Below, one piece after another: positions 1-17,079 of a stretch of 33,213 bases of DNA; position 1 is the first letter of the stretch; each line of letters starts with the position of its first letter. The notes below the pieces were generated by a model. That model ran no database searches. It was not told the origin of the DNA and was given only the letters and a program-made list of their open reading frames with translations. The stretch comes from Pseudomonadota bacterium (GTDB taxonomy: Bacteria > Bdellovibrionota_B > Oligoflexia > Oligoflexales > CAIYRB01), in contig JAPLFX010000203.1 in the NCBI GenBank assembly GCA_026390445.1, positions 1-33,213 of the forward strand, in the 5' to 3' direction. A program made the translations under genes and the position numbers.

Positions 1-206
1 TAGGCTAGTTGGTATTTCCAGTGAGCGATCGAGCAGCCTAAACCATAAAGATAAAACAGCACCGGACCGGCACCGCCCGAATCGGCATAGTAGATCTCGT
101 GTCCAGTAGCGAGCGCGAGCAAGCCGCTGCTCGGCTGTGGCGTCGCGGCGACCGGCGGCGACGCCGCTGCGGCTTGCTTCTTACTTGGACGCGATGCTTT
201 CGCCAT
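1..206 (-). CDS. alpha/beta hydrolase, N-terminal part (cut by window edge)
   Basis: The frame starts at the ATG at 206 and is still open at position 1, so only the first 68 residues are visible. Residues 1-30 are rich in Ala, Pro, Lys and Ser and look like a flexible leader. Then comes ADSGGAGPVLFYLYGLG followed by CSIAHW. This matches the start of an alpha/beta-hydrolase fold: the first core strand, then the oxyanion-hole region where HG or similar is usual and YG is seen here, then the W at the start of the next helix. The nucleophile elbow and catalytic triad lie outside the window, so the substrate cannot be guessed. The gene diverges from the small gene at 311; the 104-bp gap holds a sigma-28-like promoter facing the other way. 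Confidence 0.65.
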   Translation of the reverse strand, partial: MAKASRPSKKQAAAASPPVAATPQPSSGLLALATGHEIYYADSGGAGPVLFYLYGLGCSIAHWKYQLA

Positions 207-251
207 AGGGCTCTAATTTAAATGGTATTAAAGAGGGTCACAAGGAAAAAC

Positions 252-278
252 TAAAGCTCGGACGGGAGCGACCGATAA
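252..278 (+). promoter_or_regulatory. sigma-28 (FliA)-type promoter
   Basis: The -35 TAAAGCTC at 252-259 is followed by exactly 11 bp and the -10 ACCGATAA at 271-278. The established FliA consensus is TAAAGTTT-N11-GCCGATAA, so the -10 differs at one base and the spacing is exact. Transcription would start near 285, leaving a leader of about 25 nt that contains GGAGGAGG (296-303) before the ATG at 311. Confidence 0.7.
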
Positions 279-310
279 GCCATTGTAACACGCGCGGAGG
301 AGGCGGCTCC

Positions 311-598
311 ATGGGCTATCATCAGGATATTCCGATCCAATTGTTCGTCAGCCAGGAATACCACACCCCGGCCGTGCAGGTCATTGTCGACACCTGGCGG
401 GTCGAGCCGCAGCTGGTGATCGAACGAGTGATCGAGCATTTTCGTGAGATGGGCATCTATCGGATTCGGCCGAACCACCATCGCTTGATCAAAAAGGCGA
501 TGCTCAATCATCTGAAGACCTCGCCTGAGATCATGCGGATGGTGTTAAAAAACCGCAATGACGAGATGAAGCGCCAGCGCAATCGCCACGCCGATTAG
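311..598 (+). CDS. small basic orphan protein, 95 aa, probably sigma-28 driven
   Basis: I do not recognise this protein. It is 95 residues, has no signal peptide or membrane segment, and ends in a strongly basic helix-like tail (residues 79-95, rich in Lys, Arg, Asn). The middle (residues 30-75) looks helical, with alternating Val/Ile and charged residues and a cluster of His/Asn around 54-58. The start is well fixed: GGAGGAGG sits 7 bp upstream of the ATG, and a near-consensus FliA promoter lies just before that. Such signals suggest a real, well-translated gene, perhaps expressed together with flagellar functions. A role as a small cytoplasmic or nucleic-acid-binding protein is possible from the charge but not shown. 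Confidence 0.75.
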   Translation: MGYHQDIPIQLFVSQEYHTPAVQVIVDTWRVEPQLVIERVIEHFREMGIYRIRPNHHRLIKKAMLNHLKTSPEIMRMVLKNRNDEMKRQRNRHAD

Positions 599-624
599 TC
601 GCTACAACTCGTGCGGCCTAGGCC

Positions 625-852
625 TTAAGCCTCGCCCGTGTCGAGCGACAGGGCGTGGATTTGCGACTTCATCAACTCGCCCAGGGCCTGGTAGACCATC
701 TGATGCTGCTGGATCAGGGTCTTCCCTTTAAACTCGGTAGCTCTGATGCGGACCTGCCAGTGATCGCCGCCGCCGGTCATGTCGGTGGCGCGGATCTGTG
801 CGCTAGGGATGTGCTCTTTAAGGCGATTGGTAATGATCTCAGCCGTCATCAT
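625..852 (-). CDS. BolA/IbaG-family protein
   Basis: A 75-residue protein spanning the single BolA domain. The middle carries TDMTGGGDHWQVRI, the turn and strand typical of the family, followed by KGKTLIQQHQMVYQAL and ALSLDTGEA, which fits the usual end of BolA (R/H-Q-x-V-Y, then L-S-L/I-x-T). BolA proteins partner monothiol glutaredoxins in Fe-S cluster trafficking and may affect cell shape. The start is taken at 852 because GAGAGG lies 7 bp upstream; the frame also has an upstream ATG at 873 without such a site and another at 849. It is head to head with rdgB, only 32 bp apart. The short length and GGGDHW turn fit the IbaG-like subgroup better than long BolA. Confidence 0.88.
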   Translation of the reverse strand: MMTAEIITNRLKEHIPSAQIRATDMTGGGDHWQVRIRATEFKGKTLIQQHQMVYQALGELMKSQIHALSLDTGEA

Positions 853-884
853 AATATATCCTCTCGGTCGCAAGGAGGGCGACT

Positions 885-1478
885 ATGCCACGACTCTATC
901 TCGCCAGCAATAATCGACACAAGGCCGCCGAACTACAGCAGTTGTTAAGCACGCTTAAACCGGCGTGGACGGTGTCCTTGGCCCGCGAGTTGGATCCGGC
1001 CATCGCCTGGGACGAGTGCGGCGAGACCTTTCTGGCCAACGCGCGCATCAAGGCCGAAGCGGTCCGCGCCTTGACCAAGGACTGCGTGCTGGCCGACGAT
1101 TCGGGGCTGGTCGTCGATGCCCTTGGCGGGCTGCCTGGGGTTCATTCCAGCCGCTACGCGGGGCGCGAAGGCGACGATCTAGCCAACAATGCCAAGCTGC
1201 GAGCGGCGACGTCGCACTTTGAAGCGGCGCAATTGACCGCGCGCTTTATGTGCACTCTGTACTTTATCGACGCGGCAGGCGAGGGCCACGCTTTCACCGG
1301 TAGCTGCGAGGGCCACCTGACGCACACGCCCAGTGGCAAACAAGGTTTCGGTTATGATCCGCTGTTTGTACCCAGCGGTGCGACCAAGACCATGGCTGAT
1401 ATGGACAGCGCCGAGAAGAACGCCATCAGCCACCGCAGTAAGGCCTTTGCTGCCTTCGCGCGTTGGCTACAAGGCTGA
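885..1478 (+). CDS. rdgB: dITP/XTP pyrophosphatase (RdgB/HAM1)
   Basis: A 197-residue protein of full family length. All hallmark motifs are present: SNNRHK at residues 8-13 (phosphate binding), ETF at 47-49, DDSGL at 71-75 followed by VDALGGLPGVHSSRYAG, GFGYDP at 154-159 and SHR at 182-184. The family hydrolyses non-canonical purine nucleoside triphosphates (dITP, ITP, XTP) to monophosphate and pyrophosphate, keeping hypoxanthine and xanthine out of nucleic acids; it acts as a cytoplasmic dimer. AAGGAGG lies 7 bp before the ATG. It diverges from the bolA gene and converges on the gene ending at 1486, with 7 bp between the two stops. Confidence 0.96.
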   Translation: MPRLYLASNNRHKAAELQQLLSTLKPAWTVSLARELDPAIAWDECGETFLANARIKAEAVRALTKDCVLADDSGLVVDALGGLPGVHSSRYAGREGDDLANNAKLRAATSHFEAAQLTARFMCTLYFIDAAGEGHAFTGSCEGHLTHTPSGKQGFGYDPLFVPSGATKTMADMDSAEKNAISHRSKAFAAFARWLQG

Positions 1479-1485
1479 TGATCGG

Positions 1486-2496
1486 TTATTTCGCTGGCGC
1501 TGCAGCTGGTGCGGAAGCTCCAGGCTGGTTTTGTTTTTTACGCGCCTCTTTCATATAGTCGCGGTATTCGCGGCTGGTATGGATCCAACCGAAATCGGAA
1601 TCCTTGAGGGATTCGTTGATCTCATTGCGGTACTTTGCCGGCTCGATCAGGTAGGAGTTTAGGATGGCGACGGCATTTTGCGGGTCGTTCATCCTCGCTA
1701 AACAGCGCGCCAGCAGCATCGTCGACTTGCGGGCAATTTGTTCATCTTCAGCCCAGATCTGCTTTTTTTGTTCTAGTTCGCTGACGTGGCGCAGCGGGGG
1801 TAGGGCATCGACGCACTGGTCCATCAGGCGATAGGCGAGGCCAAGATGGTAGTAGCCGGGGATGTCGAGCTCGCCGTTGACCTTGGCTTTTTCAAATCCT
1901 TTAGCGGCGATCTTATATTTATGCTGGTTAAACGCTGTGGTTGCAGCGATGTAATCCTTTGATGCTCTGGCTTTGGCTTTGCTTTGATCGCCGGTTCCTG
2001 CAGCTAGCACTTGGGGCTGCTGCAAGACATAGGAGGTATCCAAGAGGCATGGGGCATCACCGCCGCCTTCGCAGCAGACCTGATGCAGGTTTGCTGACAA
2101 GCGCTTGCCGAGGATGGCATTGCACTGCAGGCCACCGGGCGGCAGGTACATAAACACCGTTTCACCGGCGAGGGCGCCCTCCTCGCTAGCCAGTCCACGG
2201 GTGTTGGCTTGGGATTTAGCCACCCGCCCCTTGAGGTACAGTCCGCGGTAGGTGTCATAAAACGCCTTGCGCCCAGCGCTGTCGAGACCCGCGATCCAAG
2301 CGTATTTATCTTTACTTAAGTCAAAGATCCTTTCTGGTTCGATCGCCTTGCAGCCTTGGACATCGTAGACGACCGGGCCGTTGATCAGCGTCATGCAGGT
2401 GGCAAAGGCATGGGTCGCGAAGGCGCCAAAGCTTAGGGCTTGGCCGCAGGCAAGGGTCAAGACGAGGCGCCAGCGCGGCCAAATCGAATATGTCAT
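1486..2496 (-). CDS. secreted protein with TPR-like repeats, function unknown
   Basis: About 336 residues. An N-terminal signal peptide is clear: Arg residues, then a hydrophobic stretch, with probable cleavage after AFATHAFA. The first half of the mature protein has several Cys (VQGCKA, LQCNA, VCCEGGG, APCLLD), suggesting disulphides in the periplasm. The second half (about residues 175-310) is helical and reads like tetratricopeptide repeats, for example AATTAFNQHKYKIAAKGFEKA, and then GYYHLGLAYRLMDQCVDALP. The end is a Gln/Pro/Ala tail. GTG at 2499 directly precedes ATG at 2496, with GGGGG about 9 bp upstream of the ATG; either could initiate. I cannot name a function; a protein-binding scaffold in the envelope is the plain reading. 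Confidence 0.75.
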   Translation of the reverse strand: MTYSIWPRWRLVLTLACGQALSFGAFATHAFATCMTLINGPVVYDVQGCKAIEPERIFDLSKDKYAWIAGLDSAGRKAFYDTYRGLYLKGRVAKSQANTRGLASEEGALAGETVFMYLPPGGLQCNAILGKRLSANLHQVCCEGGGDAPCLLDTSYVLQQPQVLAAGTGDQSKAKARASKDYIAATTAFNQHKYKIAAKGFEKAKVNGELDIPGYYHLGLAYRLMDQCVDALPPLRHVSELEQKKQIWAEDEQIARKSTMLLARCLARMNDPQNAVAILNSYLIEPAKYRNEINESLKDSDFGWIHTSREYRDYMKEARKKQNQPGASAPAAAPAK

Positions 2497-2595
2497 CACA
2501 AGTCGCCCCCTTCGAAAGGATCTGCCATCGTGGCTCTGGAGTTTTATCCATGATAACCGAAGGGTTCGGTAAATTCAAAGCCTTAGGCAGAGGTT

Positions 2596-2622
2596 TAAAA
2601 CCACGGCAAAGCTTGCCGACTA
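2596..2622 (+). promoter_or_regulatory. possible upstream sigma-28-like promoter (overlapping pair)
   Basis: TAAAACCA at 2596-2603, an 11-bp spacer, then GCCGACTA at 2615-2622. The TAAA and GCCGA cores and the spacer fit FliA promoters; the rest is degenerate. Its -10 overlaps the -35 of the next element. Confidence 0.35.
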
Positions 2623-2647
2623 AAGTTTTCCTGGCCGTCACCGAATC
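2621..2647 (+). promoter_or_regulatory. sigma-28-like promoter of the Ala-rich lipoprotein gene
   Basis: TAAAGTTT at 2621-2628 is a perfect FliA -35. After exactly 11 bp comes ACCGAATC (2640-2647), which keeps only the CCGA core of GCCGATAA. Transcription would begin near 2654, which supports initiation of the lipoprotein at 2686 rather than at the ATG at 2662. Confidence 0.5.
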
Positions 2648-2685
2648 CTAGGCTACGGTTTATGTCGCACGTAAAGGATTTAGGC

Positions 2686-3393
2686 ATGATGAACAAAACG
2701 TACAGAACATGGAAATCGATGCTAGGACCCTTGGTCATCACCGCCGTGAGCGTGATGAGCCTCCCGGCTTGCTCCGGTCACGATGAGGAGGAGCAGGTGG
2801 CGCCGAACTCGGCCAGCAAGGACGACGGCAATGAGTCCGACGAAGTCGGCACCGGCGAGGTCACAGCGGATGCGCCCAATGAGGCGGCTGCTGCTGGTAG
2901 CGACGGCGAAGCCAAGGAGGTCGCTGCGTCCACCGAAACCGCCGCGGCCGCCGACGGCGGAGGAGGCGAAGCTGCCGCTGAAGCGCCCGCCGCTGAAGCC
3001 ACTGCGGCCAACGACACCGTAGCATCAAGTGAACCGGCAGCACCCGCTGCTGCACCGGCAGCGGCACCCGCGGCCGCCGCTGCGCCGGCACCCGCTGCAC
3101 CCGCTGCCGCCGTTGCCCCAGCGGCAGCGGCCCAAGCTGTCGCGGCCTCTGGTGAGGCCGGGTCGGGCCGAGTCGTGCGCTACATTCAAGCCGATCAAAC
3201 CGCGCTCCGCGCTGCGGCGAGCGATTCGGCTCCAGTGGCGCTGCAACTCACTCAAGGGGATATCCTGATGGTGGTCGAGGAAAACGGCTGGGGCCGTGTC
3301 ACCGACCAGCTCTTCGTCAAGCTGGACGCCGTGTCGGCACGCGCCGTACCGCGGACCTTTGCCAAGCCCGAATGGTTGCCTCCCGCGCACTGA
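2686..3393 (+). CDS. Ala-rich lipoprotein with C-terminal SH3-like domain
   Basis: About 235 residues. The N-terminus is a lipoprotein signal: basic start, hydrophobic core, then the lipobox LPAC followed by SGHDEEE. The next 120 residues are low complexity, first Asp/Glu/Ala then an almost pure Ala/Pro stretch, which looks like a flexible tether. The last 70 residues, starting at RVVRYIQAD, form a bacterial SH3-like fold (LRAAASDSAP, then LTQGDILMVVEENGWGRV, with the usual G-W-G near the end of the domain). Such domains often bind peptidoglycan or envelope proteins. The ATG at 2686 is chosen because AAGGA sits 7 bp upstream; an ATG at 2662 has no such site. The extreme Ala/Pro bias makes opposite-strand frames look open, but those are shadows. 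Confidence 0.82.
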   Translation: MMNKTYRTWKSMLGPLVITAVSVMSLPACSGHDEEEQVAPNSASKDDGNESDEVGTGEVTADAPNEAAAAGSDGEAKEVAASTETAAAADGGGGEAAAEAPAAEATAANDTVASSEPAAPAAAPAAAPAAAAAPAPAAPAAAVAPAAAAQAVAASGEAGSGRVVRYIQADQTALRAAASDSAPVALQLTQGDILMVVEENGWGRVTDQLFVKLDAVSARAVPRTFAKPEWLPPAH

Positions 3394-3440
3394 TTTGGCT
3401 GTGTTAGACTGAGGTGGGTGCCAAGCGATGGGAGCCTGCC

Positions 3441-4223
3441 TTGACCTCGACTTCAACTTCGATCATGCAGTTATTTGCTAAACCGATCAGCGGCCTCGGC
3501 CGCTATACCTTATTCATGCAGCGCTCACTCGGGCGCTGTTTTTTTTCCCCGGTACAATTTCGACTGTTGCTCAAGCAGCTCGAGTTCATCGGCAATCGTA
3601 GCCTCGTCATCATCATCATCTCGGCGATCATGATCGGTTGTATCTTTGGCCTGATCCTTGGCGATATCTTTCGCAATTTTGGCGCCGAGTCGATGCTGGG
3701 TGCCGCCGCTGGGGTCGCTTTGAGTAAGGAGCTTGCCCCGATCTTTTGCGGCTTCTTGGTCACGGCTCGGGCCGGGTCGTCGATGGCTGCCGAGATCGCC
3801 ACGATGCGGGTCAATGAGCAGATAGATGCGATGCGCGTGATGGCCGTGAACCCCTATGGCTATCTGGTGGCCCCCAGGATCCTCGGGGCTTTGATCATGC
3901 TGCCGCTGCTGACGGCGGTCTTTATGCTGGTGGGCGTCATGTCGGCCTACCTGATCGGGGTGTCTTTTTTTGATATCGACATCGGCACGTTCTTGGAAAA
4001 GATGCGGTGGATCGTCAAGCCTCGCTTCATCTTTCAGGGGATGGAAAAAGGCGCAGTCTTTGGCATCATCTTGGCCTCGATCGGCTGCTTCAAAGGCTTT
4101 TTTGCCGCCGGTGGGGCCAAGGGGGTCGGCCGGGCCACGACTGAGGCGGTGGTGCTGTCCTTGGTGGCGATCTTGATCAGTGATTATTTCATCAGCTACC
4201 TGCAGTTTGATAAGGTTTTCTAG
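3441..4223 (+). CDS. MlaE-family lipid ABC transporter permease
   Basis: About 260 residues with the MlaE permease layout: an N-terminal amphipathic region (SPVQFRLLLKQLEFIGNRSL), then hydrophobic segments. The family signature is intact: KELAPIFCGFLVTARAGSSM, then AAEIATMRVNEQIDAM, then NPYGYLVAPR. MlaE proteins are the inner-membrane channel of ABC systems that move phospholipids or related lipids between the membranes, working with an MlaF ATPase and MlaD substrate-binding protein. No ATPase or MCE gene is next to it, so partners must be elsewhere. The start is uncertain: TTG at 3441 has GGGAG 6 bp upstream, GTG at 3414 and ATG at 3465 are alternatives. A run of eight T lies near codon 30-35. 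Confidence 0.88.
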   Translation: MTSTSTSIMQLFAKPISGLGRYTLFMQRSLGRCFFSPVQFRLLLKQLEFIGNRSLVIIIISAIMIGCIFGLILGDIFRNFGAESMLGAAAGVALSKELAPIFCGFLVTARAGSSMAAEIATMRVNEQIDAMRVMAVNPYGYLVAPRILGALIMLPLLTAVFMLVGVMSAYLIGVSFFDIDIGTFLEKMRWIVKPRFIFQGMEKGAVFGIILASIGCFKGFFAAGGAKGVGRATTEAVVLSLVAILISDYFISYLQFDKVF

Positions 4224-11023: not shown

Positions 11024-11051
11024 TAAAGTTTTCGCGCCGATGTGCCGATAC
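11024..11051 (+). promoter_or_regulatory. sigma-28-like promoter of the metalloprotease gene
   Basis: A perfect FliA -35 TAAAGTTT (11024-11031) and a near-perfect -10 GCCGATAC (11044-11051) are separated by 12 bp, one more than the consensus 11. Transcription would start near 11058, giving a leader of about 57 nt. Confidence 0.55.
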
Positions 11052-11114: not shown

Positions 11115-12983
11115 ATGAAGTTTAGGGCTGGAAACCGCCGTCGGTACCTCGCGCAGGGCAGCCTGCTTGGCGTGACCTTGCTGTCTATGCTGGTCCCTTC
11201 GCGGGCCCATGGGTTGACGTGGCAAGCAAGTCCCGCTCACTTCGAAACCTTTGAGCATTCCGCCCACCAGTTATTGATCCATCCAAGCCTCGACCAATGG
11301 TTGGTTCAACCCAAGGGTTTAGCCCTGTTTGGTGCTGGACGGGTCACCTTTGATGAAGCCGTGCGGCTGCTTTTGCGCGACGAACTGGGCGGACCACAGG
11401 TCTCCACCGTCGCGACGGACACCACACCGGCAGCTTTTGGGCTCGATGCGCCAAGCGGTGAGCAATCAATCGACTACGCTTTTAGAGCCGGTGGTGTGCC
11501 ACTGTGCGGCTTTATGGTGCGCGCGCATAAACTCAGCGATGGTAGTGCCTTCATCCTTGGCTCGGTTCCGGATATCGATGCCCACGAAACCGTTCCTACC
11601 GATTGGCCAGACCTTGGCCTCAGTGCTGATCAAGCTGGCCGTACGCTACGCGCGCAGACCGACATGCATGAGCTGCGGATTGGCCACAGCGAACGTTGTC
11701 TTTACGTTGCCAATGGCAAACTTCTTCCGGTTTGGAAAATGAATCTCTATGCGGATGGGAATCCTTATATTGCCTTTGCGGATGCCTACGAAACCCTAAA
11801 GTTAGACCAGAACTTCCTTGATGCGGTGGACGCAACGGCAAGGGCCTACCCGCGTAACATTGCAAATGACAGCGCTGCAACCGTAGCCCTGACCGGCCTC
11901 ACCGGTGATGGCACCTTGTCCTCCGCATACATTCAGACCGTGGTGCCGTCTTCTGTCACGCAAGCCAAGCAGGCCGACGAGGCTTTTATCTACCCCGATA
12001 CTGATGATCGCTTTGGCGAAGTGCAGGCCTATGTGCACGGATCCACTCATTTTACCTGGTTTCAGGGCATCGGCTTTCAGTGGTACGGGCCGAAGCCGCT
12101 GCAGATCAAGGCCCACTTCGCGCCGAACGGTATTCCAAATAATGCGCTGTTTACGCCTGGAAGCAGCGACGACGGGACCCTGCCATCGATTCAGATCGAT
12201 AACGGCGATGGCAAGATCTTGCAAAATCTTGTCACCGATGCCGATGTCGTCTCACATGAGATGGGGCACCACATTGTTTACAAAACCTTACAGACAACCT
12301 CAGGTGAGTCTCTGGTGTTGCATGAAGGCCTAGCCGATACCTTTGTCTTTCTGCGCACTGGTGATCCCTGTCTTGGTCGCTCGATCTGTCCGTTGACTAG
12401 CAATGCCTGCGTTACGCAGGGGCAATGTTTACGCAGTGGCACCTTGACCGTTGCCTATAACGATTCGCAGTGGATCACCTGGTCCGGAGCGCAGAAGGTA
12501 CTCGGCCACAAGCATGGCCAGTTGATTGCGGGCATTATTTGGGACTTGATCAAGACTCAGGGTATGTCGAATAAAGATGTGACTGCGCTGACCTTCAAAG
12601 CGATCTCCTACTTCAAGTCGAACAGCGGTTTTTGTGATTTCACCGCGTCACTATTCACGGCGGAGAAGGCGTTGTTTCAGGGTGCCAATGCAGACAAGTT
12701 GACCAGCGTGCTATCAGCGCGCGGGATGGGCCCGTTTTTACCGACGGCCACCCCCCGCTGCGCGAGTCTGAGCACTGGGTCTGGGATCCAAGACACGTCT
12801 GCCGCAAGTGACAGTAGCACGCAAAAAAAGAAGGGCTTGTTTGGGTGTGCCGTGATTGAATTGGGTGACGCTCCGGTTAATCTGATTTGGTCGCTGTTGT
12901 TGCTGACGGTGCCGGTGGTGCTTAGTCTTAGACCCACTCTCGCTCGGCAAAAGGCACGCCGCTCAAGCAAACGTAAGACATAG
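11115..12983 (+). CDS. exported HExxH metalloprotease with C-terminal Cys/TM/basic tail
   Basis: A 622-residue protein. The signal peptide covers residues 1-32 (basic start, LLGVTLLSMLV, then a cut after SRAHG or nearby). The catalytic zinc motif is HEMGHH at 381-386, with HEGLAD at 403-408 supplying the third ligand (Glu404). This HExxH...EGxxD arrangement resembles fungalysin/thermolysin-type (M36/M4) gluzincins. An N-terminal propeptide-like region precedes it. Four Cys (about residues 415-440) probably form disulphides. The end is unusual: Cys578 in GLFGCAVIELG, a hydrophobic stretch (about 588-606), then a basic tail with many Arg/Lys. This resembles the MYXO-CTERM sorting signal, which would lead to cell-surface display. 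A sigma-28-like promoter lies upstream, and an A_AAA_AAG slippery heptamer sits just before the tail. Confidence 0.85.
   Translation: MKFRAGNRRRYLAQGSLLGVTLLSMLVPSRAHGLTWQASPAHFETFEHSAHQLLIHPSLDQWLVQPKGLALFGAGRVTFDEAVRLLLRDELGGPQVSTVATDTTPAAFGLDAPSGEQSIDYAFRAGGVPLCGFMVRAHKLSDGSAFILGSVPDIDAHETVPTDWPDLGLSADQAGRTLRAQTDMHELRIGHSERCLYVANGKLLPVWKMNLYADGNPYIAFADAYETLKLDQNFLDAVDATARAYPRNIANDSAATVALTGLTGDGTLSSAYIQTVVPSSVTQAKQADEAFIYPDTDDRFGEVQAYVHGSTHFTWFQGIGFQWYGPKPLQIKAHFAPNGIPNNALFTPGSSDDGTLPSIQIDNGDGKILQNLVTDADVVSHEMGHHIVYKTLQTTSGESLVLHEGLADTFVFLRTGDPCLGRSICPLTSNACVTQGQCLRSGTLTVAYNDSQWITWSGAQKVLGHKHGQLIAGIIWDLIKTQGMSNKDVTALTFKAISYFKSNSGFCDFTASLFTAEKALFQGANADKLTSVLSARGMGPFLPTATPRCASLSTGSGIQDTSAASDSSTQKKKGLFGCAVIELGDAPVNLIWSLLLLTVPVVLSLRPTLARQKARRSSKRKT
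12824..12830 (+). promoter_or_regulatory. candidate -1 frameshift heptamer A_AAA_AAG
   Basis: The codons CAA AAA AAG (570-572) contain the heptamer A_AAA_AAG in the phase used by dnaX. A -1 shift would add nine codons and stop at the TGA at 12857-12859, removing the membrane tail. No upstream Shine-Dalgarno-like stimulator or clear downstream stem was seen. Confidence 0.25.
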
Positions 12984-15015: not shown

Positions 15016-17079
15016 CTACTTGGTGGCTTTAAAGAAGACGTAAAACTGATCACCGGCTACCACCAGGCGACAAACATCCTGGTAGTCAGAGCCGTTGCAT
15101 AGGGAGAAGGAATTGATGCTGCCAACGCTTCGTCCTTGGTAATGCACCTTGCCATCCCCGGAGAAGGTAAATCGCAGCGGATTGGTCGTCACGCCCTTAT
15201 TCACCAAGCGGATGTCGACCTTGCCCAGCAGCGCATCGGCGATGCTGAAATCCAGGCCATAGCCAGCGACGGCGACCGAGTGCCATTGATAGGGTCCTGC
15301 TGAGTCATCGCGTTCGGTTTCGGCTTGGGTGAGGCCGAGGGCTAGTTCGTTGCTGTCGCTGACGTAGTTAAGTTGGCAGACCTGGCCAAAGGCCCGGCTG
15401 CAAAGGGTGAGGATGTGGGTGGTGGTATCGATGCTACCGATATTGATCTGCTGGGTTTTATTTTTGTAGAACTTAATATCGTTGCCGCTTAGGTCCAGCA
15501 CTAGATCCTTGGTGATCTTGGTCTGGTCTGCCAGCAAGCCGCGCAAGATGAGGTGCGACCCGTCTGTCTTATAGAGGATCTTGCGGAACTCGTCGCTGTC
15601 GGTCCACAGCGTCCCTAGCGTCATGTCGTCGTTGCTTGGCGTGCTGTTGGCGTCTAGGAACACGACCCGCCCAGTCGGTTGCGAGTCGGTGGCGGGAACG
15701 GTCTTGTCGGTGGGGGTGGTGTTTGGATCGGGAGCGGCTATACCGGTTGGTTTTTTATCCGCGGCGGCTTTCGCAGCCGCAAACTTGTCGGGATCCAGGA
15801 CCGCATCGAAGACCCGCGGGAAGGCATCGGGAAAGCGCCAGTGGTTGAACCAGGCCAAGGTCATGCAGCTGGTGCCGTTGGTGCCCCAGCCTTTGCCCCA
15901 GCTGTTGCGGATGATAAAGCACATGCCGCCTTCACCGGGAAACTGACTTTCATTGAGTTTGCGCGCGCCGACGACCAGATAGGCGTGACCGGCGGCATGT
16001 GAGGTGTCGCCGGCGACTCCCTCGGCTTCGGCCAAGGTGATCATGCCGTCGTTTTCTTCCCAGTTCCTGCTGAGGCGGCTGGCAACGGCTACCGGCAGGT
16101 CCTCCTTCGCCAACATGTCGTAGATGTCCTGGGCGGTTCCTGGTTCTTTTTGCCAATTGCTGACCCAAGCGGCGAAGTCCTGCACTTTGGCCACTCCCGA
16201 CTTGCAGCCGCTTTCCTGTGGAATCTGTAGATCATTGCTGCCGGGTTTTTTGTTGTACGGGCAATCGGTCGCTAGTGGAATATTATAGGTGCTTGGTGAG
16301 TCCGGCGGGTAGGTTTGACCCTGATAGGCGTAGCCATTGCTTTTAGCAAAGCCGGTGCCGGCATTGGAGCCTCCTTGGCTGGCACTGCCGCCGTCGCTCC
16401 AGTGTTCTGGTTTACTCATATAGTAAAAGCGCTGCTGCGATAGGTCTAAGCCCTTGAGCTGATACTTTTTTATCAAGAAGGCTTCGAGGTGGCCGATGCC
16501 GGCGAAGCTCGCACAGGTCCCGCGTTGGCCTTGATCGCGTACCGGCAGCTGTGCCAAGGTCGAGATGGTAAACTCATCGGCTTTGCTTGAGTTCCACGTC
16601 ACCTTGTCATTGGTGCGGTCAGGAGCGCTCGCCAGCAGCGACAAGGTCTTTGGCTGAAAGACGCTCGCATCATCTCTGATAAAGCCGTCTGGAACGTAGC
16701 TTGCCTTATTCCTTTGCAGGTCTCCGAGTAAATCGGCGGTCGAAGCAGCGACTTCAGGAACCGTGTTGGTGTCGTCGAGGCTCAGGGTCTTGGCTTTGTC
16801 GGCAGCCGCGAGGTGCATCGCCGCAAGGATATCGCTGACCGGTGCGGTTTGATCTTTAAACGATTTGGCGAAGTAGGACGCGGCGTCGCTACCGGCCACG
16901 GCCTGGTAGGGCGTGGTGGCGCCGAGGACCGTACTGTGCTTGGCGAGGATCGTCTTTAGATCCTTCTGGCTACAGCCGGTGGGAACTAGGGCTGCGGCGA
17001 TCAGGGTCACACCCTGAAAGGTGGCGCCAAAGGTCTTGCCAGCGCGACGTACAACTTGTCGAGGGCGGCTCCTGGGCAC
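15016..17079 (-). CDS. papain-like (C1A) cysteine protease, lipoprotein
   Basis: A 687-residue protein. The basic start with several Arg, a hydrophobic stretch and VPTGC (Cys36) suggest a lipoprotein signal, though Pro at -3 is atypical. The papain domain covers about residues 170-420: oxyanion Gln183 and catalytic Cys189 in RDQGQRGTCASFAG, catalytic His365 in AGHAYLVVGA, and Asn392 in IIRNSWGKGWG. All needed residues are present. Residues 435-475 are a Thr/Pro/Asp linker, and the last 210 residues form an unrecognised beta-rich domain with paired Cys. The start is GTG with GGAGG 6 bp upstream. It probably heads a two-gene operon with the barrel protein at 14114. It likely cleaves envelope or external proteins. 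Confidence 0.88.
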   Translation of the reverse strand: MPRSRPRQVVRRAGKTFGATFQGVTLIAAALVPTGCSQKDLKTILAKHSTVLGATTPYQAVAGSDAASYFAKSFKDQTAPVSDILAAMHLAAADKAKTLSLDDTNTVPEVAASTADLLGDLQRNKASYVPDGFIRDDASVFQPKTLSLLASAPDRTNDKVTWNSSKADEFTISTLAQLPVRDQGQRGTCASFAGIGHLEAFLIKKYQLKGLDLSQQRFYYMSKPEHWSDGGSASQGGSNAGTGFAKSNGYAYQGQTYPPDSPSTYNIPLATDCPYNKKPGSNDLQIPQESGCKSGVAKVQDFAAWVSNWQKEPGTAQDIYDMLAKEDLPVAVASRLSRNWEENDGMITLAEAEGVAGDTSHAAGHAYLVVGARKLNESQFPGEGGMCFIIRNSWGKGWGTNGTSCMTLAWFNHWRFPDAFPRVFDAVLDPDKFAAAKAAADKKPTGIAAPDPNTTPTDKTVPATDSQPTGRVVFLDANSTPSNDDMTLGTLWTDSDEFRKILYKTDGSHLILRGLLADQTKITKDLVLDLSGNDIKFYKNKTQQINIGSIDTTTHILTLCSRAFGQVCQLNYVSDSNELALGLTQAETERDDSAGPYQWHSVAVAGYGLDFSIADALLGKVDIRLVNKGVTTNPLRFTFSGDGKVHYQGRSVGSINSFSLCNGSDYQDVCRLVVAGDQFYVFFKATK

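Follow-up and report, generated by a model that had tools for sequence, protein, structure and literature searches.

The window, by which we mean the whole stretch of DNA analysed here, is an entire contig (G000:C124, 33,213 bases) of the source genome G000, a 4.17 Mb draft. Near its beginning, a putative near-consensus FliA promoter and a ribosome-binding site precede a gene encoding a protein of 95 amino acids, and all of these features are present as the original prediction had described them (Table 1). The promoter cores TAAAG and CCGATAA are exact at a spacing of 11, in line with the 11 to 12 nt that separate FliA boxes. Deviations occur in the first base of the −10 box, which is A instead of G, and in the −35 extension, which is CTC instead of TTT. 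TAAAG-N15-CCGATAA, searched with at most one mismatch, matched once in the window, where 0.07 matches would be expected. Start-proximal GGAGG-type sites are also found in the orthologue upstream regions L010-L014. No sigma-70-like promoter was found 5′ of the gene, and no Rfam family was found in positions 1-3500 of the window.

Table 1. Positions of the promoters, genes and signals in the window
Feature	Position	Strand	Remarks
Predicted FliA (sigma-28) promoter	252-278	+	−35 TAAAGCTC at 252-259, 11-nt spacer, −10 ACCGATAA at 271-278
Expected transcription start	285	+	about 7 nt past the −10 box, from the known sigma-28 geometry
Ribosome-binding site	296-303	+	GGAGGAGG, read from the sequence
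95-aa gene	311-598	+	ATG at 311, stop ending at 598; undescribed order-restricted family
BolA-family gene	625-852	−	convergent conserved neighbour, outside the unit; Pfam BolA 2.4e-16; synteny in f1 and f6
RdgB/Ham1 gene	885-1478	+	conserved neighbour; Pfam Ham1p_like 3.6e-57; synteny in f1 and f6
Second FliA-type promoter	2621-2647	+	TAAAGTTT-N11-ACCGAATC, before lipoprotein gene 2662-3393
Third FliA-type promoter	11024-11051	+	TAAAGTTT-N12-GCCGATAC, before the M36-like metallopeptidase gene at 11115

Pattern searches together with individually read stretches provided the genome-wide figures for FliA sites. The strict FliA pattern (TAAAG and CCGATAA with a variable gap of 10-12) matched 28 times in the source genome, whereas the reversed-pattern control matched three times, an excess of about ninefold. 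The genome encodes FliA itself (TIGR02479, G000:C69:53125-53799), which scored 288 bits against a cut-off of 189.6. FlgM (PF04316) is encoded at G000:C60:5841, and there are nine flagellin-domain matches as well as FliG. The excess of strict sites and the presence of FliA and FlgM bear out the FliA-type identity that had been assigned to the site. Judged from the sequence, it is well supported and very probable that the gene is real and has its FliA promoter at 252-278.

The promoter of the 95-aa gene had been called the best supported in the window. This ranking has to be withdrawn, since the promoter at 11024 is the strongest in the window, with a score of 23.8 bits against 19.4, and the site at 2621 is also conserved, with a counterpart in 7/7 orthologous loci. 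Sites with a GCCGAT core precede the metallopeptidase gene in the five other genomes of the genus. The product of this M36-like gene (11115-12983) has a C-terminal membrane segment. The lipoprotein encoded at 2662-3393 is rich in Ala and Pro and gave a weak SH3 match; its translation may really begin at an ATG farther downstream. At 15016-17079, the minus strand of the window encodes a C1 (papain-family) peptidase whose N terminus is lipobox-like. Elsewhere in the source genome (L008, G000:C69:115107), a FliA site lies before a DUF4258-like gene of 87 aa followed by a gene of 117 aa, possibly a toxin-antitoxin pair.

The distribution of the gene was followed in 43 genomes of the order and in 15 genomes outside the order but within the phylum. 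The order label Oligoflexales rests on the named relatives of the source genome. There are five of these, all uncultured and metagenome-derived, and one is labelled Pseudobacteriovorax antillogorgiicola (NCBI: Oligoflexales, Bdellovibrionota). By profile search, the gene is present in 31 of the 43 order genomes (the copy in G019 is a fragment with stops) and in none of the 15 genomes outside the order, among which Bdellovibrio is not included. The gene is thus not the orphan it had been taken for. The protein is 98% identical to the copy of one relative, 43-47% identical to those of the other members of family f1 and about 25-35% identical to those farther out. The copies of f1 and of genus g20 in family f6 adjoin bolA, rdgB, a TPR-like gene and leuS, and they are therefore orthologues. 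In the 10 flagellated genomes of family f8 the gene is relocated: it lies downstream of alternative complex III genes in genus g9 and overlaps the start of ettA in genus g15, these neighbours being named from their sequences without a family search. An undescribed ORF of 84-85 aa lies between the alternative complex III genes and the 95-aa gene in g9 (L081-L083). A phage origin was rejected, since viral contigs contain no relative of the 95-aa protein, and none was found on plasmids. A profile search gave no paralogue among other FliA-driven genes, such as the 71-aa gene at C249.

We scored promoters in the 100 nt before each orthologue, using 400 shuffles, which set the floor of the p-value at 0.0025. 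A FliA-type site is located 22-35 nt before the start in 7/7 copies of f1 and 5/5 copies of g20, with single-locus p-values from 0.0025 to 0.02. Both genomes of genus g21 also have such a site. At L037 it lies 22 nt before the start. At L035 its distance from the ATG is 67 nt; translation there probably begins at a GTG farther upstream, which would reduce the distance to 22 nt. Weaker FliA-type sites precede the orthologues in f10 and g17, and none was found in the 100 nt upstream of those in f8, f2, g7 and g23. The non-lipoprotein neighbours that served as controls at these loci, among them RdgB, LeuS and MlaE, seldom score as high. When the f1 and g20 orthologues were aligned on the −10 box, with near-identical copies counted once, CCGAT was invariant in 8/8 clusters; the columns of the −35 TTAAA were kept in 4-6 of the 8, and the remaining and flanking columns in 2-5 of the 8. 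The −35 boxes differ among orthologues. Since the identity of the protein drops as low as 43-47% within the genus, the promoter match does not merely reflect recent shared descent. The homology search proposed in the original prediction has yielded orthologues, and the promoter bases on whose conservation that prediction depended are kept in f1 (7/7), g20 (5/5) and g21 (2/2). The expectation that the promoter accompanies the gene stands for these three groups; it does not extend to f8, where the promoter is missing and the gene belongs to different operons.

The protein had been described as a member of an unknown family, which agrees with our searches: no match above a curated cut-off was obtained in Pfam, NCBIfam or PHROG, and the family is undescribed. 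Sequence matches in the PDB were likewise absent, and Foldseek returned no significant fold match for the AlphaFold models among solved structures. AlphaFold predicts five helices for the window copy (pLDDT 90) and the same five helices for a copy from f8 that is only 27% identical to it (pLDDT 91.6). The most conserved positions are W29, S71, I74, P8 and G48-I49. The conserved residues are mostly hydrophobic or at turn or cap positions (W29, G48, S71 and I74) and appear to be structural. No conserved set of catalytic residues was seen among the family members. The protein had also been called basic. However, the pI ranges from 5.4 to 10.0 across the family, so basicity is not a family trait, and nucleic-acid binding, which might be deduced from it, was dropped as a property of the family. 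Identity with FlgM was rejected as well, since PF04316 matched none of the 18 members tested and the genuine FlgM is encoded elsewhere. The flagellar export chaperones FlgN, FliT and FliS likewise gave no match, either through their Pfam families or to solved folds.

Eight genomes lack both flagellin and a strong FliG match (G008, G009, G012, G016, G017, G018, G025 and G037). The 95-aa gene is found in 0/8 of these and is intact in 30 of the 35 genomes with true FliG. For the association of the gene with flagella, Fisher's test gives p 9e-6 when counted by genome and 0.005 by genus, with the genomes counted being related to each other. A guide tree of FliA shows about five changes in the possession of flagella, mostly on weakly supported branches. 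With so few and such weakly supported changes, an independent-pairs test had no power and did not make the association significant. Five flagellated genomes have no intact copy, which indicates that the gene is accessory and dispensable for flagella. The eight genomes without flagella keep a FliA above the family cut-off, most of them on long branches, and retention of FliA without flagella is known from Legionella (PMC5655016). FlgM is missing in seven of these eight genomes.

In the source genome, 24 genes behind strict FliA sites were readable, and 16 of them carry a lipobox, compared with 16 of 94 background genes (p 5e-6), under a looser rule that was applied alike to both sets. Under the first, stricter rule the fractions were 8/24 and 12/57, which are not clearly different, so that the magnitude of the enrichment varies with the rule applied. 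The enrichment is plain by eye and recurs in the genome G003, where the rule assigns a lipoprotein to 27 of 40 sites and inspection by eye adds about five; these 40 were chosen from 62 sites, mainly for good −35 boxes. Few of the lipoproteins behind FliA sites are common to the two genomes, so the set changes fast. Among the upstream regions of the flagellins (L240-L245), 3/6 contain FliA-like matches, all of them weak (e.g., TAAACTAT-N11-GTCGATGC). The other three have no convincing match, and the strict consensus is absent throughout. Sigma-54 promoters were also sought before the flagellins, and no good match was found. Since most strict FliA sites in the genus precede lipoproteins, control by FliA does not by itself mean motility or a flagellar product. 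The original view of the 95-aa protein as a motility-phase product is supported by the lack of the gene in all flagella-less genomes of the order.

We consider it probable that the 95-aa protein, expressed from the promoter at 252-278, is a FliA-dependent cytoplasmic adaptor or regulator of the motile phase. RNA polymerase with FliA would transcribe the gene, which would place it among the late genes that depend on FliA in a flagellated bacterium of the Oligoflexales. The product is predicted to be a small, folded, all-helical cytoplasmic protein that has neither a signal peptide nor conserved catalytic residues. It most likely binds another protein and may act as an accessory factor of the motile phase; a structural part of the flagellum it is presumably not. 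This proposal draws on the size and predicted fold of the protein, the lack of catalytic residues, the predicted control by FliA and the absence of the gene from genomes without flagella.

The main alternative assigns the protein to a branch of the FliA regulon devoted to the surface or to an attack-like phase rather than to motility proper, with FliA as a life-phase regulator. The protein would then prepare or control the cell, for example in translation or envelope assembly, while the lipoproteins reach the surface. The lipoprotein counts in the source genome and G003 agree with this, as do the reported role of FliA as a global attack-phase regulator in Bdellovibrio (Karunker et al., PMC3627812) and the f8 contexts, where an overlap with ettA or a position after respiratory genes is not flagellar. 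However, all eight flagella-less genomes lack the gene although they have kept FliA, which ties the gene to flagella more than to FliA, and we regard this alternative as rather unlikely. A combined scheme is possible, and we offer it tentatively: FliA in the genus may chiefly regulate fast-changing surface lipoproteins, with near-perfect promoters there and weak ones at the flagellins, and the 95-aa protein may be a rare, long-conserved cytoplasmic member that links the surface programme to the flagellated phase.

Less probable still is that the protein regulates the flagellar machine or serves it as a chaperone, in the anti-sigma or export manner of FlgM, FlgN and FliT. A small, helical, FliA-linked protein that occurs only with flagella would suit such a role. 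It is nevertheless improbable, because FlgM has its own gene, no Pfam family of this kind is matched, the 95-aa gene is not near flagellar genes and is missing from five flagellated genomes, and the protein is predicted to be well folded, unlike FlgM. That the site at 252-278 resembles a FliA promoter by accident and an ordinary promoter drives the gene, as the poor −35 extension and the variable −35 boxes of the orthologues might suggest, is hardly credible given the CCGAT fixed in place across divergent orthologues, the genome-wide excess of sites and the lack of a sigma-70-like promoter before the gene.

The 95-aa gene adds a new and conserved family of proteins, together with a defined signal for its expression, to a poorly known, predator-related lineage. 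The analysis also points to a flagellar sigma factor that controls mostly surface lipoproteins. Should FliA act as a life-phase switch in this lineage too, as it does in Bdellovibrio, that would suggest either a greater age or more than one origin of the arrangement, and the genes named here can serve for probing it.

Three known systems invite comparison. In Bdellovibrio bacteriovorus, 92 of 140 attack-phase promoters contain FliA-type sites, and the proposed targets of FliA include surface proteins and proteases in addition to flagella (PMC3627812). The attack-phase motif of that regulon, TTAAG-N16-CCGATA, precedes many non-flagellar genes for surface proteins, proteases and uncharacterized products (PMC3627812), and behind its predicted FliA-type sites the window shows the same mix of a 95-aa gene, a lipoprotein and a metallopeptidase. 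The difference is that the organism studied here, uncultured and of a related lineage, is not known to be a predator and that lipoproteins dominate the genes behind its FliA sites. The late (class 3) flagellar promoters of enteric bacteria have the same boxes and the same 11-nt spacing (TAAAGTTT-N11-GCCGATAA). In contrast to them, the 95-aa gene lies away from flagellar clusters, the strict sites are mostly non-flagellar and the flagellin promoters are weak matches. FlgM and the export chaperones FlgN, FliT and FliS resemble the 95-aa protein as small, helical, FliA-linked cytoplasmic proteins, but neither sequence nor fold comparison gave a match to it, and FlgM is encoded separately.
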